Assembly (NCBI RefSeq): GCF_004369205.1
Contig: NZ_QFGA01000001.1
Coordinates: 620,001-684,000 of the forward strand
Direction of reading: 5' to 3'
DNA: 64,000 bases
Source: Pelotomaculum schinkii
Lineage (GTDB): Bacteria > Bacillota > Desulfotomaculia > Desulfotomaculales > Pelotomaculaceae
Shown in pieces: positions 26,697 through 40,817 of the stretch. The notes below the pieces were generated by a model that saw nothing but the letters and a program-made list of their open reading frames with translations, did no database searches and was not told where the DNA came from. The position numbers were made by a program, and so were the translations under genes. Positions within the stretch are counted from its first letter, which is position 1, and each line of letters opens with the position of its first letter.

Positions 26697-27209
26697 ATGA
26701 AACAACGCTTCTTTTACTGCCCCAAATGCGGGGGCCGGCTAAACTATAAGGAGCAAGGTGAGCGACAGAGGCTCACCTGCTCCGTGTGCTCATATATCTT
26801 GTATGAAAACCCGGTGGTAGGTGTCGCCGCAGTGGTTGCCAACGACCGCGGGCAAATCCTGCTGGGCCGGCGCAATGGAAGCTACCGGGGACTCTGGTGC
26901 ATTCCCTGCGGTTATGTAGAGTACGACGAAGACGTCTGCGAAGCGATCGTACGGGAGTATAAAGAAGAGACCAATCTTGACATCAGGCTCAAGGGGGTAT
27001 TCTCTGTCCAGTCAAACTTTCACAACCCGGAAACCCACACGGTCGGGATCTGGTTTAAGGCTGAAGTTACTGGAGGCGAATTGATGGCGCAAGCTGACCT
27101 GGATCAGGTAGGCTATTTTGCTTTGGACGATTTGCCGCCGCTGGCCTTTCCTACCGATGCTAAAGTTATCGAAGAGCTAAAGGATGTCTGTAGTAAAAAT
27201 AAAAAATAA
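26697..27209 (+). CDS. NUDIX hydrolase with N-terminal zinc ribbon
   Basis: 170 residues from ATG 26697. Residues 7-33 form a zinc ribbon (YCPKCGGRL, LTCSVCSY). The NUDIX domain follows with the box GYVEYDEDVCEAIVREYKEE (GX5EX7REUXEE, with small changes). The combination resembles NudC-type NAD pyrophosphatases and ADP-ribose hydrolases, but the short length points to a generic NUDIX enzyme. The 3' part is duplicated at 28850-28996. Confidence 0.87.
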   Translation: MKQRFFYCPKCGGRLNYKEQGERQRLTCSVCSYILYENPVVGVAAVVANDRGQILLGRRNGSYRGLWCIPCGYVEYDEDVCEAIVREYKEETNLDIRLKGVFSVQSNFHNPETHTVGIWFKAEVTGGELMAQADLDQVGYFALDDLPPLAFPTDAKVIEELKDVCSKNKK

Positions 27210-27635: not shown

Positions 27636-28349
27636 ATGTTCTTGGAAGGCGACCTGCATTTACACACTATTGCCAGTGGACACGGCTTCAGCACTGTTAA
27701 AGAGATAGCTGGAGTGGCGGCCAAGCGTGGGATAAAAATTATAGGAATTACTGATCACGGTCTCAATATGCCTGGCGGTCCACATGTGTATTACTTCAGA
27801 CAACTGCTTGGTTTACCCAGGGTTATTGAAGGAGTCGAGGTCCTGCGCGGAGTCGAGGCCAACATTATTGACACTGCTGGCAACCTGGACATGCCGGAAG
27901 GTTTGTTAGCCAAACTCGATCTGGTGCTGGCGGGATTTCATGAGGAGTGCGGTTATTCAGGAAGTTCTGTTGAAGAGAACACAGCTGCTATGATCGCAGC
28001 CATTCATAATCCTTTTGTTCATATTATAACCCATCCGGGCAATCCAGTTTTCCCGGTGGACATTGAAAAGGTTGTTATTGCAGCCTGCCATGCGAAGAAG
28101 GCCCTGGAGATTAATAACAATTCATTTTGCCTGAGTCGCAGTGGCAGTGCGCCAAATTGCACTATTTTTGCCAAAGAGATTAAAAAGCACAATGCCTTAC
28201 TATCAATAAACAGCGATTCACATTTTTGTGATACGGTCGGACAATGCCAGTATGCAATGGAGTTAATTAACATGACAGGTATAAATGATGAATCTATTCT
28301 AAATACCTCAGCGTTAAGAATCAAAAAATATATAGGAAAAAAAGCATAA
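27636..28349 (+). CDS. PHP-domain phosphoesterase (YcdX-like)
   Basis: 237 residues from ATG 27636, chosen for GGTGGAGG 8 bases upstream over an earlier ATG at 27594. Metal-ligand motifs: GDLHLHTIASGHG, GITDHGLNM, GVEANI, THPGNP and SINSDSHF. A PHP hydrolase, probably acting on a phosphorylated small molecule. Its last 135 bases plus the following sequence occur again at 40527-40680. Confidence 0.87.
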   Translation: MFLEGDLHLHTIASGHGFSTVKEIAGVAAKRGIKIIGITDHGLNMPGGPHVYYFRQLLGLPRVIEGVEVLRGVEANIIDTAGNLDMPEGLLAKLDLVLAGFHEECGYSGSSVEENTAAMIAAIHNPFVHIITHPGNPVFPVDIEKVVIAACHAKKALEINNNSFCLSRSGSAPNCTIFAKEIKKHNALLSINSDSHFCDTVGQCQYAMELINMTGINDESILNTSALRIKKYIGKKA

Positions 28350-28404
28350 AAAAAGCAAGGATTAATCCTGGCAGATATTTGATTTGCAGTTCTGATTTGC
28401 AAAA

Positions 28405-28718: not shown

Positions 28719-28846
28719 GTAAGCTTGATAAATCTGGAACAAGAAAGTTTCATTGATACCCTTTATGACAACTGTTCGCTATGGTGATATGGCGCCTCAA
28801 GGCGCCTTCAATGGTATGTAACTCAATGTTTCCTTCCTACATAATC
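28719..28846 (+). repeat. inverted copy of the 43486-43625 segment
   Basis: About 128 bases matching the reverse complement of 43486-43625: GTAAGCTTGATAAATCTGGA, AAAGTTTCATTGA, CTATGGTGATATGGCGCCT and GGTATGTAACTCAATGTTTC. It encodes the fragment VSLINLEQESFIDTL of the small membrane protein at 43510-43686, then loses the frame. A short internal segment is missing here. Confidence 0.8.
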
Positions 28847-28849
28847 TAG

Positions 28850-28996
28850 TTTAAGGCTAAAGTGACTGGAGGCGAATTGATGGTGCAAGCTGACCTGGAT
28901 CAGGTGAGTTATTTTGCTTGGGACGATTTGCCGCCGCGAGCCTTTCCTACTGATGCCAGGGTTATCGAGGAGCTCAGGAGCAGGTCGCAGACTTAA
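28850..28996 (+). pseudogene. duplicated 3' end of the NUDIX gene
   Basis: Encodes FKAKVTGGELMVQADLDQ, then VIEELRSRSQT and a stop, closely matching residues from about 119 to the end of the intact NUDIX protein (27050-27209). It has no start or ribosome site. The boundary with the preceding repeat is within a few bases of 28850. With the PHP fragment at 40527 it brackets the accessory island. From 28997 to 29181 I see no gene. Confidence 0.85.
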
Positions 28997-29181: not shown

Positions 29182-30366
29182 CTATTTCAAAATCCCAGCC
29201 TTTTGGTGCAATTTTTTCATTCTGGCGATATCTTTCCCGGACACTGCATAAACGTTATAGATTGTATGAAACATGTGCCTGCGTTTGAACAGCAGGCATT
29301 TAACACCCCGCAGCACCCAGCAGGCCGGCAGGAGAAACGGTCGCGCGGTAAGAAAAGGATATGGATTTTTCAGTATTTCCACCGGAGGGAAAAACAGTTT
29401 CATCCAATAGGCATGTTTGGACGGCAGTATCTTTTTGTCCGCCCGGATACCCGGGGAGGATATAATTGAATGCTTCCGGGTGCCGTAAGCCCCGCTTGAA
29501 AATATGTACTCTGTCATTTCTTCGTATAACGCATTACTCTGTCTGCTGCCGAACCATACCTCGCCGAGTCCGCAGATGTTTTCCGCAAACTCCCGAAGGC
29601 TGACCTTGTCCAGTTCGGCTTCTATATAGTCCCAATCCATTTCATCCTTATAACGGCGACGGTAAACCCATATGTCCATGAAGGAACGGATGCCGGTCCC
29701 ACCGCCTGCATAGTGTTTGGTAAGGTGGATCAGAAGATAGATGTAAAAGTCCTCACAGGAAAGCTGATACGTATATTTGCAGCCGGGTTTCAAGACAGCC
29801 CTGTCCCAGGTTTTATCCAGGTAGCCGCTATAGGGTGAATTCTCTGAAATAAGCCTGCGGTGCATTTCTATATTCATATAAGGCTCTCTGTAATGCACGT
29901 CATGGTTTCCGCCCTGGTGCTTCACAGTATAGCCCTGTCCCTGCATGGTTTGCTTTACTTTTTCTGCCTGCTCCGTTTTAAAAAAAATATCTATATCGGC
30001 CATCAGCCGCATATCGGGCTTCGGATATAAGTATTTGATTAGGCAGCCCTTCAGTGGCATACAGGCAATGCCGTTTTCCTCAAAGCTTCTTAAAAGCTGA
30101 TCCACCGCAATGTGCTGGGTAGCCTCTTTAGCCATGGCCCTTTTGTATTCCTTCCGGAATTTCTCCATCACGTCCTGGGGAGGCTGCCCATCGGCATCCA
30201 GGCGGTTGAGTCCATAAAAGACCATGTTCGCTACACCGTGCCGGACCGATTGCCTGTGCAACTTTTCCCAATCCAGGTGTGACCGAGGGCTTTGTGGCTG
30301 CGCGTCATGGAGCACTGAGGAAAGCAGATGGATTAAATATTTTTGTTCAGGCCGTATGATACCCAA
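29182..30366 (-). CDS. nucleotidyltransferase-fold family protein (NTP_transf_5 type)
   Basis: About 394 residues. The start is probably TTG 30366 (MGIIRPEQKYL), well spaced from GAGGAG; a GTG at 30375 is too close. The nucleotidyltransferase core is ACMPLKGCLIKYLYPKPDMR followed by LMADIDIFFK, the last containing the metal-binding DxD. A His-containing loop GGNHDVHYREPYMNIEMHR follows. Members of this family occur in lasso-peptide and related clusters, where they are thought to modify the peptide. It overlaps the ABC transporter gene and is last in the operon. Confidence 0.8.
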   Translation of the reverse strand: MGIIRPEQKYLIHLLSSVLHDAQPQSPRSHLDWEKLHRQSVRHGVANMVFYGLNRLDADGQPPQDVMEKFRKEYKRAMAKEATQHIAVDQLLRSFEENGIACMPLKGCLIKYLYPKPDMRLMADIDIFFKTEQAEKVKQTMQGQGYTVKHQGGNHDVHYREPYMNIEMHRRLISENSPYSGYLDKTWDRAVLKPGCKYTYQLSCEDFYIYLLIHLTKHYAGGGTGIRSFMDIWVYRRRYKDEMDWDYIEAELDKVSLREFAENICGLGEVWFGSRQSNALYEEMTEYIFSSGAYGTRKHSIISSPGIRADKKILPSKHAYWMKLFFPPVEILKNPYPFLTARPFLLPACWVLRGVKCLLFKRRHMFHTIYNVYAVSGKDIARMKKLHQKAGILK

Positions 30367-32059
30367 GGCGCTCACTCCTCTCTACTGTTTTAAGCCTTCC
30401 GTTTTCGATGCGGATTTCTTTGCTGCACAGATCAAACGCGGCCTTTTTGTGGCTGATGATGATGCAGGTCGTGTCGGTCATTTGCTTGATATTATCTAAA
30501 AGCCTTTTCTCCGTGGCTTCATCCAGAGCGGAGGTGGCTTCATCCAGGAGCAATATGGGTGCTCCGCACAGAACCGCCCTGGAGATAGCCAGCCGCTGTA
30601 CCTGTCCCTGGGACAGCCCCAATCCCTTTTCTCCGATCACGGTATCCAGTCCACAGGGCAGGGTGCGTATAAACTCCGCGGCACAGCTCACCTCTGCGGC
30701 CGCCATAATTTCCGCATCGGTTGCGTTTGCATGAATAAATGCAATATTCTCCCGGATGGTCCCTGAGAGTAATAAATTATTTTGAGGGACATAGGCAAAG
30801 AGCTTTCTTGTACGCTTATCCACCGGCATCGTTTCACCGTTATTAAGCTCTATACCGATGGTCCCCCCTGTGGGTGCAAATATTCCGAGCAGTAGCATGA
30901 TTAAAGTGCTTTTGCCAATGCCGGACCGCCCGGATATCACGGCAAAGCCGCCTTTTTCTATGGTTAAGCCGGCATGTTTTAATACAGGCTCCCTGTCGTA
31001 CCGGAAGGAAACATCATCCAGCTTTATGCCTTGCATTGCAGAATAAACGGCGGATGCATTGATATCCTCTTTGTTCATATCTGCTTCGTCAGGCAGGTTT
31101 TCAAGCTCGATCAGCCTTTCCGCCGAGGCAATAACGCCATACGTTTTCGGGAGCAGCCCCGACAATCCGGTGAAGGGCGCCTGCACCTGTCCTACAAGCT
31201 GCAAGATGGCGGTGAGGGTGCCGAAGCTGATGGTTTGCGCCATCAGTCCGAAGGCACTCCAGACCAGCGCGTACAGGTATCCTATGGAAAAGATGAAGGA
31301 GAAGCCTGAGTTTGCCAGGATGCCGACGATATTCTTTCTGATCTTTGCCTGATAATGCTCCTGCCCGCGCTCTACCGCCTTTGTTTCCATGTTTTTCTCC
31401 GCGCCGAAAATTTTTATAACAATCAAACTCTCTAATAACTCCTGCATCAAGGAGCGCAGCATACCGTCTTTTTCCTGGACATTTTTATGGAGGTATTTGA
31501 GCTTCTTCCGAAAATATTTTGTCGTAAGGAACAGCACCAGGCCGCCAACCGCAAAGACAAGCGTAAAGGTGGGGTCAAAGACGCACAGTACCGCAAGTGC
31601 GCTGAGCAGCTTTGTCAATAAGCCTGCAAACTCCGGCACGATACCCGTGACTCCCTCGCTAACTACGGTAATATCGCCGGTGAGCCTGTTCATCAGCTCC
31701 CCGCTGTGGTATCCGGAAGTATGGGTATAATCCTTTTGCAGAATTTTCCCCAGGAGCTTGTGTTTATAGCCCATTTCCAGCCGTCCCTGTATCCTTACCT
31801 CCAGGTTCCGGCAGAAAATACGAAGGACAAGCTGCAGTACTATCACTGCAAACAGCCATAAACCCTGTGCGATCAGAGTATTTCTTTCTCCTGCCACAGC
31901 GCCGTCTACAACGCCTTTGGCCGCAAGGGCAAACAGTACGCCGCAGCCTGCAAACAGCGCATTTGCCAGTATCAAAGCGAGAAGAGAGAGGAGCTGCGTT
32001 TTTGAGTTTTGATAGATCCATGCAATGGTCTTTCTATCCTTCATCATCTTTATCTTCAT
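30347..32059 (-). CDS. ABC exporter, fused membrane and ATPase domains
   Basis: About 570 residues; the start is uncertain (ATG 32059 chosen, GTG 32083 possible). Six membrane helices in residues 1-300, then an ATPase: Walker A SGRSGIGKST, signature LSQGQVQRLAI, Walker B PILLLDEATSALD. It is a half-transporter of the lipid/peptide exporter class. There is no N-terminal C39 peptidase domain, so any leader would have to be removed elsewhere, possibly by the S24/S26-like protein encoded upstream. It probably exports the product of this cluster. Confidence 0.88.
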   Translation of the reverse strand: MKIKMMKDRKTIAWIYQNSKTQLLSLLALILANALFAGCGVLFALAAKGVVDGAVAGERNTLIAQGLWLFAVIVLQLVLRIFCRNLEVRIQGRLEMGYKHKLLGKILQKDYTHTSGYHSGELMNRLTGDITVVSEGVTGIVPEFAGLLTKLLSALAVLCVFDPTFTLVFAVGGLVLFLTTKYFRKKLKYLHKNVQEKDGMLRSLMQELLESLIVIKIFGAEKNMETKAVERGQEHYQAKIRKNIVGILANSGFSFIFSIGYLYALVWSAFGLMAQTISFGTLTAILQLVGQVQAPFTGLSGLLPKTYGVIASAERLIELENLPDEADMNKEDINASAVYSAMQGIKLDDVSFRYDREPVLKHAGLTIEKGGFAVISGRSGIGKSTLIMLLLGIFAPTGGTIGIELNNGETMPVDKRTRKLFAYVPQNNLLLSGTIRENIAFIHANATDAEIMAAAEVSCAAEFIRTLPCGLDTVIGEKGLGLSQGQVQRLAISRAVLCGAPILLLDEATSALDEATEKRLLDNIKQMTDTTCIIISHKKAAFDLCSKEIRIENGRLKTVERSERLGYHTA

Positions 32060-32528
32060 TACGGTGTATAAAAAGCCGGACACCTCTGGTTAAGAGTTGT
32101 TTTCCTTTACAATAAAGCCGCCGGAGAGGATACAGGGAAACCCAAAGCCTGCAATAGACCTGATACCATAAATCATCGCAAGAGGTATATTTCCCGTTCC
32201 GCCAGAAGCCCTTGACCACACCCCTGACCTGGGAGGGCAGGACCGGATATTCCTTCACGCACTGGTTATCCCCGATGACCACATAGCCCTCCTGCCTTAC
32301 CGCCACAATCCGGTGCAGGATATATTTCCCGTCCGGCCGGATAAAAAGGGGAATGTCATATTTTTTCAAGTGCTTTTCCTCCAGTTTGATGAGGCACACC
32401 TTATCCCTGCGGTGGCGCAGCATGGGAAGCATGCTGACTCCCGTGACGGTGAGGATGACTTCTCCGTCGTTTTGTAGTACCTCGGTCATCAGTGGGGAAA
32501 GCTCCGACAGTGGGACCCGTTTATTCAA
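32034..32528 (-). CDS. S24/S26 (signal-peptidase-like) family protein
   Basis: 164 residues from TTG 32528, overlapping the pqqD-like gene by 8 bases. VTGVSMLPMLRHRRDKVCL carries the serine of the S24/S26 fold and ILHRIVAV a histidine in the place of the second catalytic residue, as in Ser-His (Sec11-type) signal peptidases. There is no N-terminal membrane anchor, and a more hydrophobic stretch occurs around 120-150. In this operon it could cleave the peptide or serve as a scaffold. Activity not proven. Confidence 0.75.
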   Translation of the reverse strand: MNKRVPLSELSPLMTEVLQNDGEVILTVTGVSMLPMLRHRRDKVCLIKLEEKHLKKYDIPLFIRPDGKYILHRIVAVRQEGYVVIGDNQCVKEYPVLPSQVRGVVKGFWRNGKYTSCDDLWYQVYCRLWVSLYPLRRLYCKGKQLLTRGVRLFIHRNEDKDDEG

Positions 32529-32784
32529 AAAGAGCAGCCGCCTTCAGTTTTGCAAGAAATTCGGAAAGATCCGCTTTTGCGGCAGCTTCGTCGATTTCAT
32601 ATTCCTCCAGCAGGCCGGAAAGCAGCTCCTGTTCGGTTTTGTCCGTTTCCAGCAGCTTCCACAAAAATGTCCCTGCACCGTTTAAAGTGATTACGCCGGA
32701 AAAATCAAGGGCCGCCTTGCCGGTAGGCACCACCACATGATTTCCTGCCACCTCCCGCAGGAGGTATCCGTCTTTTATTTTCAT
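32521..32784 (-). CDS. PqqD family peptide-binding (RRE) protein
   Basis: 87 residues, the standard size. The pattern matches PqqD: GYLLREVAGNHVVVPTG, then LNGAGTFLWKLLETDKTEQE, then LSEFLAKLKAAALFE. PqqD and lasso-peptide B1 proteins bind precursor leaders and present them to modifying enzymes. Its ATG overlaps the stop of the kinase gene (ATGA). Its presence implies a peptide or tail substrate; the nearest candidates are the 31-residue peptide at 34717 and the SLH protein tail. Confidence 0.88.
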   Translation of the reverse strand: MKIKDGYLLREVAGNHVVVPTGKAALDFSGVITLNGAGTFLWKLLETDKTEQELLSGLLEEYEIDEAAAKADLSEFLAKLKAAALFE

Positions 32785-33515
32785 CTTTGTTCTGTCCTTT
32801 CATGGTTTATCGTGTCAAAGGCCAGCTTTACCGCCTCAAGGCTGATGTTGCAGTCCATTTGATATACGGTTGTCTTTTGCAGCAGCGCATCGATCAAAGT
32901 TAAAAGCTTATTCATTTTATCCAGGTCGTTGTTGGGGTGCAAGCTCTGATAGACCAGCATCCGTATGGCTTCTTTGCTGTCCAGACGCCGGATATGATTT
33001 TCTTTTGCCTGCTGCAGAAAGACGATAGCGCCAAGGGGCACCCGGATATTAGCATTTAGAGTGCTTTTTCCGCTCCATGGGGTGCCATAGGCGTAAAAAA
33101 TACCCTTCACCAGGCGCAGTACCGGCTTGTCGTCATTGACGATAACCGCTTTATCCTTGCCGAAATACTGCTGCCACAGTCCTGCATGAGTGGATTTGCC
33201 CGTGCCGCAGGAACCGGAAAAGAGCACCGCACGATTTTCCAGCGCCACCGCCGAGGAATGCAGACCAAAGCCGTCATAATCCAATATGTCCCGATAAAAT
33301 GCAAAGCCGGTCTGGACATATTCCCATTCGTTCAAGGTCAGATGCGGATATTTTTCTTTTCTGCTTTTCAGATTTTCACTGTTGATATCTATGTTGATGT
33401 CCGGAAGATCCCCTGGCGAAAGCGGTTCGGTCCGATAAGGCTTTGCCTGCTTTGTCAGGGTTTCTCCCGAACATTCCATTTGTACTGTTACATCTCCAAT
33501 TCTATATGTATCCAT
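32781..33515 (-). CDS. HPr-kinase-like kinase
   Basis: 244 residues from ATG 33515, chosen for CGGGGGGAAGT just upstream; longer frames overlap the SLH gene. Walker A is FSGSCGTGKSTHAGLW at about 125, followed by VIVNDDKPVLRL and GTPWSGKS, as in the C-terminal domain of HPr kinase. HPr kinase homologues in lasso-peptide clusters (paeninodin type) phosphorylate a serine of the peptide. Here the possible target serines are TTSGGE of the small peptide and GSSAP of the SLH protein. The role is inferred. Confidence 0.8.
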   Translation of the reverse strand: MDTYRIGDVTVQMECSGETLTKQAKPYRTEPLSPGDLPDINIDINSENLKSRKEKYPHLTLNEWEYVQTGFAFYRDILDYDGFGLHSSAVALENRAVLFSGSCGTGKSTHAGLWQQYFGKDKAVIVNDDKPVLRLVKGIFYAYGTPWSGKSTLNANIRVPLGAIVFLQQAKENHIRRLDSKEAIRMLVYQSLHPNNDLDKMNKLLTLIDALLQKTTVYQMDCNISLEAVKLAFDTINHERTEQR

Positions 33516-33540
33516 ACTTCCCCCCGTGAAGCGTACGGCT

Positions 33541-34611
33541 TTAATAGTCGATAATCTCTCCGCCATCAAGGTTTGGAGCGCTGCTGCCGGGATCATCCGG
33601 TTCATCGGGATCCTCCGGATCGCCTGCACCGCCTGACCCTCCGGAACCACCTGAGCCACCCCAACCTCCAGTATTATCCGGTGGAGCAGGAGCTGGCTGG
33701 GGCTGATCTTCCGTCTGCTTGTCTAAGTCAATCCCCTCCTTTTCCACCACCGGCATTCCTAAATCGCAGTTCACAATTTTGATTTTACCGGCTCCGCCGC
33801 CGCGGACAAAGGTATTGCCGGTGACGGTGATATTTTCAAGGCTGACGGCACCTTCACCGATCCCTTCGGCAAGATAGAGATTGCCGGTAATTTTCATATT
33901 TTGCAGGTTTGCATCGGGGGTATTGACCACCACATTGCCGCCGATATTGCCGGTATAGCTTCCGGGCCGATACACATAGAGCTTTACGATATTGTCCAGC
34001 ATCTGCACCGCTTCAGCCCGGGTCAGGCTGCCTTCCGGATGATACAATCCATTTCCTACGCCGTGGACATACCCCGCCGCCTCCATACCATCGATGGCCT
34101 CTTTTGCCCAATCAGGAAGGGTATCCTTAAAATTTGAACTGCTCCCTGTATTGCCGGCTACGGAAAATATTCTCGCATACAGCACAGCAGCTTCGGCACG
34201 GGTCAGCGGGTCATTGGGACGGGCTGTGCGGTTTCCGTTTCCGTCAAAATTGCCCTGTAAAATCCCTTTGGCATAGGCTTTGATCAGGGCATCATAGTAC
34301 CAATCACCCTTTTTGATATCCGCAAAGGGGTTATCCGTCGTTCCGCCATAGCCAAAAATCCTTCCCAATATGGACATCATTTCGGCACGGGTGATTCTGG
34401 CATTGGGATTGAAGTTTTGACCGCTTCCCTTTACAATGCCCCGGCTGCTCCAATTGTCGATGGCCGGCTTTGCCCAAAAACTGTCATTTACATCTGCGAA
34501 TGCGACAGGCTCTTGCGCGGCCGTTTCCGCAGCGTACACCGATCCGCCTGCGGCCGCCGCTAAAAACAATACGGCCAGGAATACTATGCAACAAGATAAT
34601 TTTTTTCTCAT
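33541..34611 (-). CDS. S-layer (SLH) protein with C-terminal GGEIIDY tail
   Basis: About 356 residues. Signal peptide 1-28. Three SLH repeats at about 38-90, 95-150 and 155-205 ([57 protein letters not shown]) bind cell-wall polymer. A beta-rich region 215-290 ([19 protein letters not shown]) comes next, then a Pro/Gly/Asp-rich linker and the last residues [11 protein letters not shown]. The tail GGEIID is identical to that of the 31-residue peptide encoded upstream. A TTG 2 codons earlier is an alternative start. Confidence 0.85.
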
Positions 34612-34679
34612 ATTCAAACTTTTCCTTTCAGGGATGTTTCCTGCCGGAGTTATCCTTTGATTTTGTATACTGTGTAAAC

Positions 34680-34707
34680 AGGCAGGCAGATGATTTCCGC
34701 CTGCCTA
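34680..34707 (-). terminator. hairpin between the small peptide and SLH genes
   Basis: AGGCAGGC (34680-34687) pairs with GCCTGCCT (34700-34707), with the inner bases partly paired. On the minus strand only GTTTAC follows, so it is a weak terminator or RNA-stabilising hairpin. It could allow much more peptide than downstream product. Confidence 0.6.
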
Positions 34708-34716
34708 TTTGGGGCT

Positions 34717-34812
34717 TTAGCCGTCAATAATTTCTCCGCCGCTGGTGGTAATTGTATCCTCAATTTCAAACTCGGTGATTTCAATTTCCGGTTTTTCATA
34801 GGGCTTTTTCAC
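34717..34812 (-). CDS. 31-residue candidate precursor peptide, GGEIID tail
   Basis: GTG 34812 with GGAGG 8 bases upstream; the stop is at 34717. The peptide starts MKKPYEKPEIEITEFEIE and ends DTITTSGGEIIDG. It is acidic, without cysteine. The KKPYEKPEI start resembles leader sequences of RiPP precursors (K-x-Y-x-K-P). It ends in GGEIID plus one residue, as does the SLH protein encoded next. It lies between the large secreted protein and the SLH gene, upstream of the PqqD-like and kinase genes. A precursor role is inferred from position and motifs. Confidence 0.7.
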   Translation of the reverse strand: MKKPYEKPEIEITEFEIEDTITTSGGEIIDG

Positions 34813-34813
34813 A

Positions 34814-37800
34814 TTACTCACCTCCCATGGTTCGATTTACAGTGTTATCACTATATACCGTAACCATATTGTTGTTGCTGTCCCTGTAAATCAGGTAGGC
34901 TCTCGCATACCATGTATCACCCTGTGTAATGTTGATTTTGCGGACATAGAACTGGTCGTTGGCAAAATTATTTAGCTTTAGGCGGATTGCATCCGGTGTA
35001 TCCACCGTTAACGCACTGGTTAAAGGCACGTTTGATTTTAGCAGCATTGCACCGCCCTCCACCAATGTATAGCCGGACGGAACATTTTTAATGATTGTAA
35101 ACATCATTGTCCTGTTTGCTGTATCTGCCATTACATGATCCGATAAGGTAATAAACGGTACGTTATTCAAAGAAATGCCCTCATCGACAAACACCGCTTT
35201 CAGCGTTGTGTCACGCATCGGAGCAAAGAAAGAGAACGTGTTCTTTGTGCTTACCTTTTTGTTGTCCAGCGTCCAGTGGCTGAACTGTTGTCCATCCGGT
35301 GCGGCTCCGGCCACAACCGTTACCGGCATGTCAAACTGGTATTCACCCTGTGTGCCGCCTGTAGATAATGTGCCGCCTTCTACAGTAACGGTATAAGTAT
35401 CCGGCAGCCTCTCATAGATTGCCGTGATGATCATATCCGAGGTTATATTGTTGAAGGCCGGTCTCCATTCCTTAAAGCTGTATCCGACCAAAGCAGGCTG
35501 ATTTGGAGGAGTCGCCGCCGTACCTTTAGGAACGCCTGTAGATTGTAAAATCCGGCCGCTTTTATCTTTAAATGTGACTGTAAACCTGGTATCCTCTTCT
35601 GTCGGAACCTTGCTGAGCACAGCCAATAGCTTGATATCTGTTCCCATAATGCGCTCATAAACCGGATCGGTGGAAATAATGCTAAATGTTCCATGGTCCG
35701 CCCAATAGGCAAAGGTATATCCTGTGGCTGGAGTCGCTGTTAATTTAATGACAGTACCCATTGCATATTGAAAGGCATATACCGATGAAATGGGTGTCGA
35801 ACCATCATTTAGCCAGACAGTTCCACCTGCTAAGGTATTGACCCTCAAATAACTTTTCGACATTTCCACAAACATTGGAATCAGGAACATATCCCTCGTT
35901 ACCGTGAAGGTATAGTTGGGCAGGGAGGATAATTTTGTAGTGCCTTCATACCAGCCATCAAAGTTGTATCCAGCAGCAGGGGAAGCACTGAGGGTTACGG
36001 TTGTGTCCGGGCTGTATGTTCCCCCGCCAGTCGCCGTTCCAAGTGCCGAATCAGCAATTGTTACAATATAGGTATCAGGCGAAGACATATCTTCCCAAAT
36101 GGCGTACAGGTTCAATGGGTTTGCCGGCATGGTCACCGTATCTCCCGGCGCATAGCTGGTGCCGTCGTCGTCCGGCGAAGTGTTCCAATGCTTAAATTGC
36201 ATACCGCTGGGAGGGTCAAAACTATTGTCTGCCGCCTGGAAGGTTGCTTCTGCCGGCTTATCCGTTTCTTCCGGCGCCGTGCCGGTACCGCCGTTGGCGT
36301 GGTAGGTCACAGTGTAGGTAACGGCCGGAGCAGCGCGGTTTACGATAACCGTATAGGTTTTTGCGGTTCCGTTTTCGGCTGTTACGACAATGCTGACCGT
36401 ATTGTTGCCTGTGCTTAAAGCAACGGATAGGGCGCTTCCGCCGGTCACGGGAGTTCCGTTGACTGTTACTGTTGCATGGCTGTCCGCTGAGACAGGCGTT
36501 ACCCCGACGCTGCCTACGCCGCTGGCAACATCCGCGGTGTAGCCGGTTACATCCGGGTCAAATACCGGAACCAGTGTCCCTGTGCTTAAGGTCAATCCGC
36601 TTAAGTTTGCGTTGCCGGAAGGGATATGGTTGCTTACTACATCGACCGTCAGCGTCAGCACGCTGCCCTCATTAAACGTAATAGCAAATTCTACTGCTGT
36701 TCCCGCCGTCAGGCTCAGGCCGGAAAGGTAGTCTTGTTTGATGATCAGGGTATCCTCATTTGGATCGATGGTATAATGAATATCCAAAATCAATGTTTCG
36801 CTTCCATAGACATCTCCCGTTACACTTCTATAGACCACTTCCGTTACACTTGTCGCAGCGCTGCCCCAGGTAATAAAGACAGATATGTCGGCGGGAGCCG
36901 CCAGGTCAAAGCTCACTGCCGCAGGATTGATAGCGGGATTGGCAGGCTCGGCCTGCACTGTAACGGTTACGGTATAGGTGGTTTCCTTGCCGCCGTAGGT
37001 GACGGTCAACACCTGACCCTCCACCGGCACGCTGCTGTCAAAGCCGGTGATATGCGCTGCGGTGATGGGCAATACGGCGGTGTTATTGCCTGCGTATGTG
37101 CCTGTAACCACCAGACCGGTAATGTCCAGCGGTTCGCCCGCGGTATAGCCTGTCCTGTTTGCCAGCGTAGTGATGGCAATGCTGTCAAGAGCGATTGGAT
37201 CCGTCATGTCATTGCCAATCAAACCGCCTGTGCTCGCGCCCGCACCGCCCGTGACAAGGCCGGCGCTGCTGCTGTCTTTTATATCCACCCCGGCCGACAT
37301 CGAACCCAAGCGGGCGCCCACCAGACCGCCCGCGTCTGCGTTCGCGCCGACGCTGACGTTTCCAGTGCTGTGGCTTCCGCCGACGCTGACGAACCCGACC
37401 GTATCCGGCGACATAATATAGCCGACCAGGCCGCCCGCGTGGGAGTTATCCCCTCCGCTTACGGGGCCGCTGCTTGTGCTGCCCGTAACGCTTCCTGTAA
37501 TGCTGCCCGCCAAGCCGCCGATAAACGCGCCGTTACCGCCGTTTACGCCGGCGCTGCTGCTGCTGTCCGTGATGGTTCCCCTATTGCAGCCCACCAGACC
37601 ACCAACGTATGCGCCGCCTCCGCTTCCGCTCAAGCTTCCGGTGCTGCTGCACTGACTGACGCTTCCGTAATTAAAGCCGACCAGTGCGCCTACATAGGCG
37701 GAGTCTGCGGAAGAAGAAACGCTTACGTTTTCCAGCGTGATATCTTGCAGTGTCCCGCTGCTGTCCACATATCCGAACAAACCCGCAAGCCCCAGCGTGT

Positions 37801-38140
37801 CGCTGTCAATGGTCAGATTGCATATGGTATAGCCGCCGCCGTCGTACGTGCCGGTGAACAAGGTGACGTACTCCCCGATGGGCGTCCAGTTGAGGCCCGA
37901 CAGGTCGATGTCCGCCGTCTGCTCGAAGTATGCGCCCCAATAATCCTTATACACCACGTCGCTGACCGCTATAAGATCCTCAGCCGAAGCAATTATGTAC
38001 GGATCGCCGTCGATACCCGCGCCGCTCCACGGCGCTTCAACCGCATAGGCCGCTATGGTTCCCACTGTCATCAGCATGCTGACCAGCATACAGACGACCA
38101 TGAACCATGTGGTTATTTTGTTACAACCTTTTTTCCACAT
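34814..38140 (-). CDS. large secreted repeat protein (GLUG, Ig-like, cadherin-like, InlB repeats)
   Basis: 1108 residues. Signal peptide 1-33. Residues about 60-310 are GLUG-type repeats (VGGLVGCNRGTITDSSSSAG and similar). About 315-395 is an Ig-like domain (LDITGLVVTGTYAGN). About 405-500 resembles an X2 / carbohydrate-module domain. About 505-600 is a cadherin-like sandwich (NLSGLTLSTGTLVPVFDP). About 605-980 holds several InlB B / Flg_new repeats (YHANGGTGTAPEETDKP, ALVGYSFKEWRP). It is a cell-surface adhesin-like protein without an SLH domain or LPXTG, so how it is held is unclear; the operon's SLH protein could help. Its last codons overlap the ribosome site of the small peptide. Confidence 0.85.
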   Translation of the reverse strand: MWKKGCNKITTWFMVVCMLVSMLMTVGTIAAYAVEAPWSGAGIDGDPYIIASAEDLIAVSDVVYKDYWGAYFEQTADIDLSGLNWTPIGEYVTLFTGTYDGGGYTICNLTIDSDTLGLAGLFGYVDSSGTLQDITLENVSVSSSADSAYVGALVGFNYGSVSQCSSTGSLSGSGGGAYVGGLVGCNRGTITDSSSSAGVNGGNGAFIGGLAGSITGSVTGSTSSGPVSGGDNSHAGGLVGYIMSPDTVGFVSVGGSHSTGNVSVGANADAGGLVGARLGSMSAGVDIKDSSSAGLVTGGAGASTGGLIGNDMTDPIALDSIAITTLANRTGYTAGEPLDITGLVVTGTYAGNNTAVLPITAAHITGFDSSVPVEGQVLTVTYGGKETTYTVTVTVQAEPANPAINPAAVSFDLAAPADISVFITWGSAATSVTEVVYRSVTGDVYGSETLILDIHYTIDPNEDTLIIKQDYLSGLSLTAGTAVEFAITFNEGSVLTLTVDVVSNHIPSGNANLSGLTLSTGTLVPVFDPDVTGYTADVASGVGSVGVTPVSADSHATVTVNGTPVTGGSALSVALSTGNNTVSIVVTAENGTAKTYTVIVNRAAPAVTYTVTYHANGGTGTAPEETDKPAEATFQAADNSFDPPSGMQFKHWNTSPDDDGTSYAPGDTVTMPANPLNLYAIWEDMSSPDTYIVTIADSALGTATGGGTYSPDTTVTLSASPAAGYNFDGWYEGTTKLSSLPNYTFTVTRDMFLIPMFVEMSKSYLRVNTLAGGTVWLNDGSTPISSVYAFQYAMGTVIKLTATPATGYTFAYWADHGTFSIISTDPVYERIMGTDIKLLAVLSKVPTEEDTRFTVTFKDKSGRILQSTGVPKGTAATPPNQPALVGYSFKEWRPAFNNITSDMIITAIYERLPDTYTVTVEGGTLSTGGTQGEYQFDMPVTVVAGAAPDGQQFSHWTLDNKKVSTKNTFSFFAPMRDTTLKAVFVDEGISLNNVPFITLSDHVMADTANRTMMFTIIKNVPSGYTLVEGGAMLLKSNVPLTSALTVDTPDAIRLKLNNFANDQFYVRKINITQGDTWYARAYLIYRDSNNNMVTVYSDNTVNRTMGGE

Positions 38141-38271: not shown

Positions 38272-39164
38272 TTATATGGCAGCGGACAGAGGGATTTCCT
38301 CGTATCGCATCCGGGAGGCCAGGGTTTCCTCATCCATTTTGTACTTTTTGCGAAATTCCGAGGGCGTGTAACGATAATACATCTTAAAGTATTTGACAAG
38401 ATATTTGGGGTCGGAAAAACCGCATTCGGCCGAGATGTCGCGGATCATTTTACCGGTGCTTAAAAGCAGCCTTGCCGCAACCATACATCGGCCACAGGCT
38501 AAAAGCTCCACGAAGGAAAGCCCGAATTTGTCCTTGATGTCGTGAGACATGTGCTGCGTAGAGATCCCGGCTATCTCCGCCAGATCCGTCAGCCTGTGCT
38601 GCCCGGCCGGTGTTTTCAGCACATATTCATAGATATCTCTGTACCTTTTCACATGTTTATCCACGAAGGCATGGATCCCCGAACCGTAGCGAAGGTAATC
38701 AAAACTGTCAATCATACAGGCCAAGGTTTCTTCCAGACGTCCCTTACCTTTGCATTATGGTTTTTGCCCGCTTCCTTGTTTATCAACAGCCGAACCAAGT
38801 GTAAAACATGCCCTTTCACGGTTTTGTACTTTTCCGGCGCCTCCGCCTCGTGATACGAAGAACAGCAGTGGATGAAAACGTATTGAAAATAGGGATAAGT
38901 CCTTTTGCAAAAGTCCGAATCAATCTGAACGATTAACAGCTTGTTATCTTTGCCCTTGATGCAGTGAAGCTCATCCCTGTTGACGACCACAATGTTATTC
39001 TCCGTCAGCAGGTGGGTTTCGCCGCTGACGCCAATCGTTGCCTGGCCTTTCAATACCATGATGATTTCCAGGGCTTTGTGCCAGTGGTAGGGATATTCGG
39101 TAATGTTCCGGATGCAAGCCCTGACCGGCATATCCTCTGAAAATGCTATCGTTTCCGGGCGCAT
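38272..39164 (-). pseudogene. AraC-family regulator split by a frameshift
   Basis: From ATG 39164 (site GAGGAGG) the N-terminal cupin part reads MRPETIAFSEDMPVRACIRN and on to NAKVRDVWKKPWPV and a stop at about 38712. The other frame continues at about 38735 with EETLACMIDSFDYLRYGSG and a normal AraC DNA-binding domain (DISAECGFSDPKYLVKYFK). It aligns end to end with the intact regulator at 39359-40276. Loss of one base near 38727 explains the break. Programmed frameshifting or a sequencing error are alternatives. Confidence 0.75.
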
Positions 39165-39358: not shown

Positions 39359-40276
39359 TCAACTGTTTGAGTGATGTAATAATTCTTTATAATGGGAAAG
39401 GAGCAGGTCACGGTACTGCGCCTGCGATGCCAGTGTTTTGTCATCCGCCCGGTACATCGTGCGAAATTCCGAAGGGGAATGCTTAAAAAAATGCTTAAAG
39501 TGTTTATTGAGGTATTTGGGATCAGAAAATCCGCATTCCATAGCAATGTCAAGAATCTGTCTGCCGGTGCTTAAAAGCAGCTTTGCGGCATATTCACATT
39601 GACTGTAATGCAGCAGTTTCATGAAGGTTTGCCCGAATTTTTCCTTAATGTCGTGCGACAGATGATAAAAGCTGATATCAAGCTCTGCCGCCAGAGCCTT
39701 CAGTTCCGGATTCACCTCATGATCGCCGCTGGCACGCCCGGCCATTTGCAGGAGCCGTTCTACAAGCTTTTCGTTGAATTCCTTCGTGCCATAGCCCCAG
39801 CGTAAAAAATCAAAATTGTATGTTATGTAACCCAGCATGGATGTCAGGATGTTTTCAATATTTTTTCTATGCTCTCCGCGGGCGTTTTCATGGAACGCCC
39901 ATACCAGCCGGGCAATGTATTCCTTCAGTCCTTTGTATTTTTCGGGTGACTCCGCTTCATGATAAACCGAACAGCAGTAGATAAACAAATATCTCCCGTC
40001 TGTCAGGAGGCTCCGGTAAAAGTCGGCATCAATCTGAATAAACAGGATTTCGTTATCCTGGCTTTGGGTGATACGATGCAGTTCATTCATGTTGACTACG
40101 GCGATGTCATTTTCGCGCAGCAGGAGGTTGTCGTCGCCGAGGGTTATATTGACGGACCCTTTCAGCACCTGTACAATTTCCAGGGTGTTATGCCAGTGGT
40201 AGGGATATTGTTCCAAGCACCTGGCAAATATCTTGACCGGCAGTCCGTCGGAGAATGCAATTGTTTCAGGGCGCAT
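39359..40276 (-). CDS. AraC-family transcription regulator
   Basis: 305 residues from ATG 40276 with GGTGG upstream (a GTG at 40285 is possible). Residues 1-130 form a cupin sensing domain (YPYHWHNTLEIVQVLKG). Residues about 205-295 hold two helix-turn-helix units (LDISFYHLSHDIKEKFG and ILDIAMECGFSDPKYLNKHF). About 50% similar by eye to the broken regulator downstream. Probably the working activator of the surface-protein/peptide operon. I see no copy of the 20-bp site in front of this gene. Confidence 0.87.
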   Translation of the reverse strand: MRPETIAFSDGLPVKIFARCLEQYPYHWHNTLEIVQVLKGSVNITLGDDNLLLRENDIAVVNMNELHRITQSQDNEILFIQIDADFYRSLLTDGRYLFIYCCSVYHEAESPEKYKGLKEYIARLVWAFHENARGEHRKNIENILTSMLGYITYNFDFLRWGYGTKEFNEKLVERLLQMAGRASGDHEVNPELKALAAELDISFYHLSHDIKEKFGQTFMKLLHYSQCEYAAKLLLSTGRQILDIAMECGFSDPKYLNKHFKHFFKHSPSEFRTMYRADDKTLASQAQYRDLLLSHYKELLHHSNS

Positions 40277-40526
40277 CTTTACCACCTGCCTTTTTACAAT
40301 TTTAACGGGCTACACCGCTAAAATCAGCACCCTTAAACATCGCCCGCGATTCCGATGGCTTTATTTTCCTGCGGCTTCTTCCGTCAGGAGATTTTGGGGC
40401 GTTCTTTGGAACCAGCCACACAGGTTGCCCTTTTTCAGTATACCTTTGATCCTGCCTGCAACGCAATATTCGGCAAACCCGTTTTTAGGCTCTCCACATC
40501 CGGAACTTTAGCGACGGCTTCCCCCT

Positions 40527-40680
40527 CACATTTTGTGATACGGTCGGACAATGCCAGTATGCAATGGAGTTAATTAACATGACAGGTATAAATGATGAGT
40601 CTATTCTAAATACCTCAGCGTTAAGAATCAAAGAATATATAGAAAAGAAATCATAAAAAAACCAGGGTTAATCCTGGCAT
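40527..40680 (+). repeat. duplicated 3' end of the PHP gene
   Basis: About 154 bases nearly identical to 28217-28371: the last 45 codons of the PHP gene (DTVGQCQYAMELINMTGIND and on to the stop) plus the following TTAATCCTGGCA. There is no start. Direct orientation relative to the original. It marks the right edge of the accessory island. The stretch 40286-40526 between the AraC gene and this copy holds no gene I can support. Confidence 0.88.

Positions 40681-40741: not shown

Positions 40742-40817
<76 letters not shown>

Follow-up and report, generated by a model that had tools for sequence, protein, structure and literature searches.

In a 64,000-nucleotide (nt) stretch of the Pelotomaculum schinkii genome (RefSeq assembly GCF_004369205.1, contig NZ_QFGA01000001.1, positions 620,001 to 684,000 of the forward strand; hereafter the window) there is a minus-strand operon, 29182-38140, that encodes a small peptide among surface proteins and peptide-tailoring enzymes. 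It would seem marginally probable that this operon is a leader-guided peptide maturation cassette, dependent on a recognition element (RRE) for ribosomally synthesised and post-translationally modified peptides (RiPPs), and that what it makes is for the use of cell-surface proteins rather than a lasso peptide. What is seen at the level of the sequences is a recurring gene order, a peptide family with a conserved leader and a variable core, a core shared with surface proteins, a pairing of peptide genes with genes for large surface proteins, and two natural fusions. The best reading of these sequences is that lasso-type tailoring enzymes and an S26-type protease may have been redeployed to make a short core that would act as a tail or ligand of the C-terminal domains of surface proteins.

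From 38140 down to 29182 the genes encode a large surface protein, the peptide, an S-layer homology (SLH) protein, an HPr-kinase-like protein (the kinase), a PqqD-family protein, an S26-type protease, an ABC exporter and an NTP_transf_5 nucleotidyltransferase (Table 1). A check of the open reading frames (ORFs) found all of these genes where a sequence-only reading of the window had put them. The operon that it proposed is confirmed, and since the same gene order was found again in other genomes the arrangement is more than chance. The ORFs as listed overlap at kinase/PqqD, PqqD/S26, S26/ABC and ABC/NTP. Revised starts were assigned to the kinase (ATG 33515), the SLH protein (ATG 34611) and the peptide (GTG 34812), the last of these lying five bases 3' of GGGAGGTGA.

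The peptide belongs to a family that was detected (E<0.01) in 45 of 130 loci with a kinase relative. In 42 of the 45 it is encoded on the kinase strand, 7-2222 nt upstream, the exceptions being loci L038, L049 and L204. The sequence-only reading had staked itself on conservation of the peptide in homologous loci, and conserved it is. Across 38 aligned peptides the leader is marked by Phe15 (38), Tyr/Phe5 (37), Pro8 (36), Asp19 (33) and Ser24 (26), with Ile, Leu, Met, Val or Phe at position 10 in all 38, and a YxxPxL-type motif is present. The portion after Ser24 is variable and mostly acidic. No peptide of the 38 ends in Ser, the residue modified by known lasso kinases; all 38 have a Ser or Thr within residues 19-29, and the predicted core of the window peptide, GGEIIDG, contains neither. 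Compared with L018, the nearest relative, the window has nine synonymous and three residue changes in codons 1-24, one of the three being only the GTG/TTG start codon, and six residue changes in the seven-residue core. A precursor of constant leader and variable core, encoded beside a PqqD protein, a protease and an exporter, would place the operon among the RRE-type RiPP loci. Locus L204 (genome G780) has two family peptides with Cys-bearing cores that lie 3' of the kinase rather than upstream. In three metagenome-assembled genomes (MAGs) of Nitrospirae (L069, L070, L071) a different peptide, rich in Lys and Cys (KKEYEKPEVKKVQLKPEEV...), is encoded immediately upstream of a related kinase and may represent a sister system.

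Peptide and kinase are separated in 15 loci by a gene whose product starts with a hydrophobic segment and continues through a low-complexity linker to a tail. Several of these proteins have SLH domains and others, by sequence, a lipoprotein or membrane anchor. The tail often repeats the core of its own locus: the window core GGEIIDG is matched by the tail GGEIIDY, GGDIGDY by GADIGDY in L084 and GIEDGEE by GIEDGGE in L022, while core and tail are identical in L153 (EGDNGTGWG, nine residues), L155 (DNDIADPWG, nine residues) and L195 (PYETPED, seven residues). The link between the peptide end and the tail of the S-layer protein, both of which the sequence-only reading had named as possible targets, is real and recurs in other loci (L084, L153, L155, L195). 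In a permutation test of the 15 loci, designed after the tails had been viewed, the matched score was 477, whereas permuted scores averaged 313 (sd 24) and none of 200,000 permutations scored as high. Without L153, L155 and L195 the p value was 5.5e-4, and when the window locus and L084 were also removed it was 0.019. With shuffled cores, tested locus by locus, 8 of the 15 fell below 0.05. The set comprises 15 of the 16 loci in which a peptide lies no more than 2.3 kb upstream and is separated from the kinase by an ORF of 70 residues or more; a limit on N-terminal hydrophobicity removed L037 and one L155 ORF, and L193, where a matching anchor precedes the peptides, lies outside the set. The paired copies agree in 64 residues, 27 of which are encoded by different codons, and the pairs are therefore not fresh duplications. 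The anchored proteins of L150 and L155 (G607, G551) have a second C-terminal motif, GW[ST]GIY; a peptide matching it was sought in both genomes, where the pattern was found only in two anchored proteins each.

The peptide genes also keep company with genes for large surface proteins. Of 26 peptides in 12 genomes, 23 come straight after an ORF of 240 residues or more (minimum lengths), 21 of these within 35 nt; this count includes L236, where the ORF extends upstream and on paper overlaps the surface gene, and excludes L216 and L222 (contig end) and L237. A further 25 peptides, one of them also in the first set, were listed by longest nearby ORF, and 16 have a large ORF within 50 nt. Six of the upstream proteins were scanned and have fn3, InlB-type, Ig-like, CAP, RCC1 or lectin-like domains. 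In G607 the sequence FGDND[ILV][AIS]DPWA is common to five peptides behind five different surface proteins, and the SLH anchor beside the cassette carries GDNDVADPWG and GDNDASDPWG. A search of G607 and G551 for the pattern DN...DPW found 13 places against none for the reversed control. Peptides account for seven and anchored proteins for four; the remaining two are at the extreme end of surface proteins. These two surface proteins (...DNDYSDPWN and ...DNDAPDPWN) share their C-terminal domain with the peptide-paired ones, and no peptide gene was found in the DNA examined behind them. Such natural fusions suggest that the core functionally belongs at the C-terminus of these surface proteins.

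Comparison of 14 loci separated the C-terminal domains of the surface proteins into two types, A and B. The core GDE[FVL]GWG[DE]I is found in all four type-B loci and in none of the ten type-A loci. By surface domain type B is one clade (100/99); by the joined maturation enzymes the four type-B loci come together in 0 of 200 bootstrap trees. This hints that it is the surface domain, and not the enzymes, that the core follows. A beta sandwich is predicted for the domain (mean predicted local distance difference test score, pLDDT, 91.9), and a fold search gave weak Ig/Fn3-like matches (best E 0.016). The sequence-only reading is partly supported: the tailoring set, the conserved peptide and the tail link hold, the phosphorylation or nucleotidyl transfer that it suggested would be a putative step, and the large surface protein had been listed in it without being proposed as the partner of the peptide.

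For the kinase, Pfam returned no HprK match, and the best NCBIfam match, ScmC (1.2e-8), was below its cut-off at 34.6 of 125 bits; the predicted structure (AlphaFold, mean pLDDT 93.5) has HprK/P and PEPCK among its nearest solved folds. Searches by sequence for solved relatives gave none for the kinase and, for the protease, one match that is due to chance. Among 16 aligned kinase relatives His86, Lys107 and Asp129 are found in 16 and Asp128 in 13, residues which would fit the His-Lys-Asp-Asp set described for lasso-peptide kinases (PMC9266682). The S24/S26 protease is better described as S26-type: the S24 label is weak in Pfam (E 0.11), NCBIfam gave matches, below cut-off, to models of signal peptidases (TIGR02228 1.7e-6, SipW 0.0073), and the window protein has the motifs GVSMLP, HRIV and GDN. 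In 80 protease ORFs across the loci GxSMxP is present in 80, HR[IVL] in 76 and G[DE][NH] in 71, a motif set that we take to be of the Ser/His, SipW-like type. The PqqD protein scored below cut-off against the lasso-specific NCBIfam models (30.7 of 70 and 29 of 80 bits).

Put together, these proteins suggest the following route. By analogy with lasso B1, PqqD would bind the YxxPx[IL] leader; the kinase and the NTP_transf_5 protein would modify the peptide, most likely at the Ser/Thr-rich junction of leader and core; the S26-type protease would cut next to the conserved Ser, removing the leader; and the short acidic core would be exported by the ABC transporter. The core would in this way be trimmed and exported by the cassette and probably modified en route. 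We place the cleavage beside Ser because the displayed copies start at or shortly after it (in L155, MTQS is followed by DNDIADPWG) and because the preceding residues are compatible with a small-x-small protease site. Under a lasso-like Thr(-2) rule the cleavage would fall one residue earlier. Outside the cell, the large surface protein encoded just ahead of the peptide may then take the core as tail or ligand of its C-terminal Ig/Fn3-like domain, a partnership that we infer from the gene pairing, the natural fusions and the shared tails. In many loci an anchor of the SLH, lipoprotein or membrane kind has the same core at its C-terminus, so that anchor and adhesin would carry or bind one lineage-specific tag. 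It is conceivable, if short of probable, that the product is a trans-encoded surface tag: one lineage-specific core, made by RiPP-type enzymes, would be attached to or docked on the C-terminal domains of many adhesins, with the same tag present in cis on the cell-wall anchor and some adhesins, so joining or identifying a cell's own surface proteins.

Antibiotics, signals and cofactors are the main products for which RiPP-type enzymes are known. If the cassette serves surface proteins, RiPP machinery would gain a role in surface assembly or self-recognition. In one order, that of genome G474, the kinase (E<=1e-35) was found in 80 of 295 genomes. The peptide (E<=1e-4) was found in 59 of these genomes and both in 51 (Fisher p 7e-28, over genomes that are phylogenetically non-independent). 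The cassette also offers a testable function for HprK-like kinases, PqqD and NTP_transf_5 proteins outside lasso clusters, and it predicts that short shared tails should be detectable in proteomes. At E<=1e-30, 8 of 113 genomes in the order to which the window belongs have the kinase, as do 10 of 398 in the window's phylum. The named kinase relatives are mostly from clostridial MAGs, many of them labelled Oscillospiraceae. Some loci were drawn twice, from the same or a near-identical genome in two collections (for example L052/L189, judged by like gene order). Genome G741, 81% complete, has ten peptide matches and no kinase match, which could mean either a missing contig or another maturation route.

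Several results weigh against the reading as a surface-serving cassette. No peptide was detected in 85 of the 130 kinase loci, and 8 of the 59 peptide-positive genomes gave no kinase match. In 7 of the 15 loci the shuffled-core test found no significant match of core and tail. An earlier scan of 31 cores against 892 locus proteins at their whole length was weak: the own locus was sole top for one core only (L084), with L080 tied. The tail test took its place. For 19 peptides encoded away from a cassette no displayed copy rose above background, the cassette locus being covered for 12 of the 19. The GDExGWG core had no displayed copy in four genomes, where only the five peptides were found. Lastly, approximately unbiased (AU) tests did not reject a single type-B clade for the joined enzymes (p 0.17) or for the kinase alone (p 0.105).

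Among the alternatives, the one that survives best, though it seems unlikely, is a diffusible RiPP, in which the exported core would be a signal or toxin, the large surface protein its receptor or simply co-regulated, and the anchored copy a decoy or immunity factor. RiPP clusters typically have an RRE, a protease and an ABC exporter, the YxxPxL motif of the leader is lasso-like (PMC10368454), and the cores differ by lineage behind a constant leader. This explanation fails, however, to account for the single core of the five G607 peptides behind five different surface proteins, or for the two surface proteins that themselves end in the core. It is a good deal less likely again that the cassette acts directly on surface-protein tails, with the kinase and the NTP_transf_5 protein modifying the SLH tail before secretion and the peptide as accessory or activator. 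Tail and core are alike and one enzyme could accept both, but the displayed copies are without the leader and its PqqD-type motif, and an anchored copy is missing from several loci that have both peptide and kinase (e.g. L019, L077, L081, L083). We consider it very improbable that core and tail resemble each other by chance or through common composition and that the cassette is an ordinary RiPP cluster yet to be assigned. Both linkers and cores are Gly/Asp-rich, and the unmatched loci and the late design of the tail test leave room for it; the runs of identical residues in L153, L155 and L195, the outcome of the permutations and the excess of DN...DPW over its reversed pattern all speak against it.

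Among the closest known counterparts of the cassette are lasso clusters of the paeninodin and pseudomycoidin type (A, B1, B2, C, D, K, N), which bring together a kinase, a PqqD-type B1, a nucleotidyltransferase and an exporter. In these clusters the kinase adds phosphate to a C-terminal Ser, and hexose addition requires the nucleotidyltransferase (PMC8498205, PMC9266682). Rumen lasso clusters with HPr kinase, PqqD and nucleotidyltransferase genes appear in one survey (PMC7533575). The cassette resembles these clusters in its YxxPx[IL] leader, PqqD-type B1, HPr-kinase-like K with the His-Lys-Asp-Asp residues, nucleotidyltransferase N and ABC exporter D. It differs in having an S26-type Ser/His peptidase instead of cyclase and B2, in the absence of a C-terminal Ser from its peptides (n=38) and in cores common to surface proteins. 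The description of a paeninodin-like tailoring set without cyclase and B2 protease was borne out. The window genome (completeness estimate 100) has no match to the lasso B2 protease PF13471, and no lasso cyclase was recognised among its three Asn_synthase matches, one full length and two partial; the full-length protein scores 510 of 267 bits, over the cut-off, with the asparagine synthase model and 239 of 525, under it, with the lasso cyclase model. Nor was a lasso cyclase, whose presence the sequence-only reading had named as fatal to itself, seen in the conserved cassettes. A lasso pathway with cyclase and B2 protease elsewhere in the genome is therefore unsupported in the window genome and would seem extremely improbable: its enzymes co-occur in lasso clusters and G047 has three PF13471 genes away from its cassettes, but PF13471 is absent from the other six of seven cassette genomes searched and, to our knowledge, GGEIIDG is too short to form a threaded ring.

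An HPr-kinase-like protein beside a PqqD-like protein is also found in the SynChlorMet (ScmC/ScmD) and HPr-rel-A (HprK_rel_A/PqqD_rel_X) cassettes. All scores against these, however, are far below cut-off (HprK_rel_A 18 of 200 bits and PqqD_rel_X 15.4 of 35, besides ScmC), and unlike SynChlorMet cassettes there is no radical SAM protein among the operon proteins scanned. The only other PqqD match in the window genome comes from the N-terminal portion of a protein resembling radical SAM/SPASM peptide maturases (G000:C2:618865, L076), possibly a separate RiPP locus. A short C-terminal sequence common to several surface proteins of one cell recalls sorting of the sortase or PEP-CTERM type; here, in contrast, it is for the most part a leader-bearing peptide that supplies the sequence, in trans, and the scan of the operon proteins recognised no sortase. 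The open-access literature, which leaves subscription papers mostly outside the search, gave in the parts covered no description of the cassette or of cores common to surface tails. The RRE-Finder paper reports several unassigned RRE clusters, and its main text, as far as covered, does not use the words HPr, kinase, S24, S26 or nucleotidyltransferase (PMC7470986).

Table 1. Features of the operon, in window positions.
Feature	Position	Strand	Basis
Large surface protein, 1108 residues; InlB-type repeats, cadherin-like, Ig-like, CBM_X2 and C-terminal Ig/Fn3-like domain	34814..38140	-	Pfam; C-terminal domain common to relatives; predicted model
Leader portion of 31-residue precursor peptide; GTG start, YEKPEI motif	34741..34812	-	Sequence and alignment
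Predicted core GGEIIDG; putative boundary, possibly one residue earlier; stop codon 34717-34719	34720..34740	-	Comparison with displayed copies
SLH-domain protein, 356 residues; signal-peptide-like start, Gly/Pro-rich linker, tail GGEIIDY (codons 33544-33564)	33541..34611	-	SLH Pfam 6.4e-28
HPr-kinase-like protein; His86, Lys107, Asp128, Asp129	32781..33515	-	NCBIfam, predicted fold, alignment
PqqD-family protein, presumed leader-binding RRE	32521..32784	-	PF05402 6.8e-17
S26-type (Ser/His) peptidase, presumed leader protease	32034..32528	-	NCBIfam, motifs
ABC exporter, membrane and ATPase domains in one protein; start uncertain	30347..32083	-	ABC_membrane 5.4e-27, ABC_tran 1.3e-24
NTP_transf_5 nucleotidyltransferase	29182..30375	-	PF14907 1.2e-66

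The surroundings of the operon contain repeated sequence. The block is bordered on one side by a second copy of the 3' end of a PHP-domain-like gene (28224-28360 and 40531-40667, 95% identical and 12.3 kb apart) and on the other by a second copy of part of a Nudix-like gene (27048-27178 and 28844-28974, 89% identical). It looks as if the operon block had been inserted into a duplicated Nudix-PHP unit, the gene names being given by the look of the sequences. In the nearest relative there was no blastn match to the two flank stretches tested for synteny. An AraC-type regulator at 38272-39164 is split into two overlapping ORFs, an N-terminal binding part and a C-terminal part, and looks frameshifted; an intact paralogue adjoins it at 39359-40285. 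A tRNA-Ala gene is found at 40742-40817.

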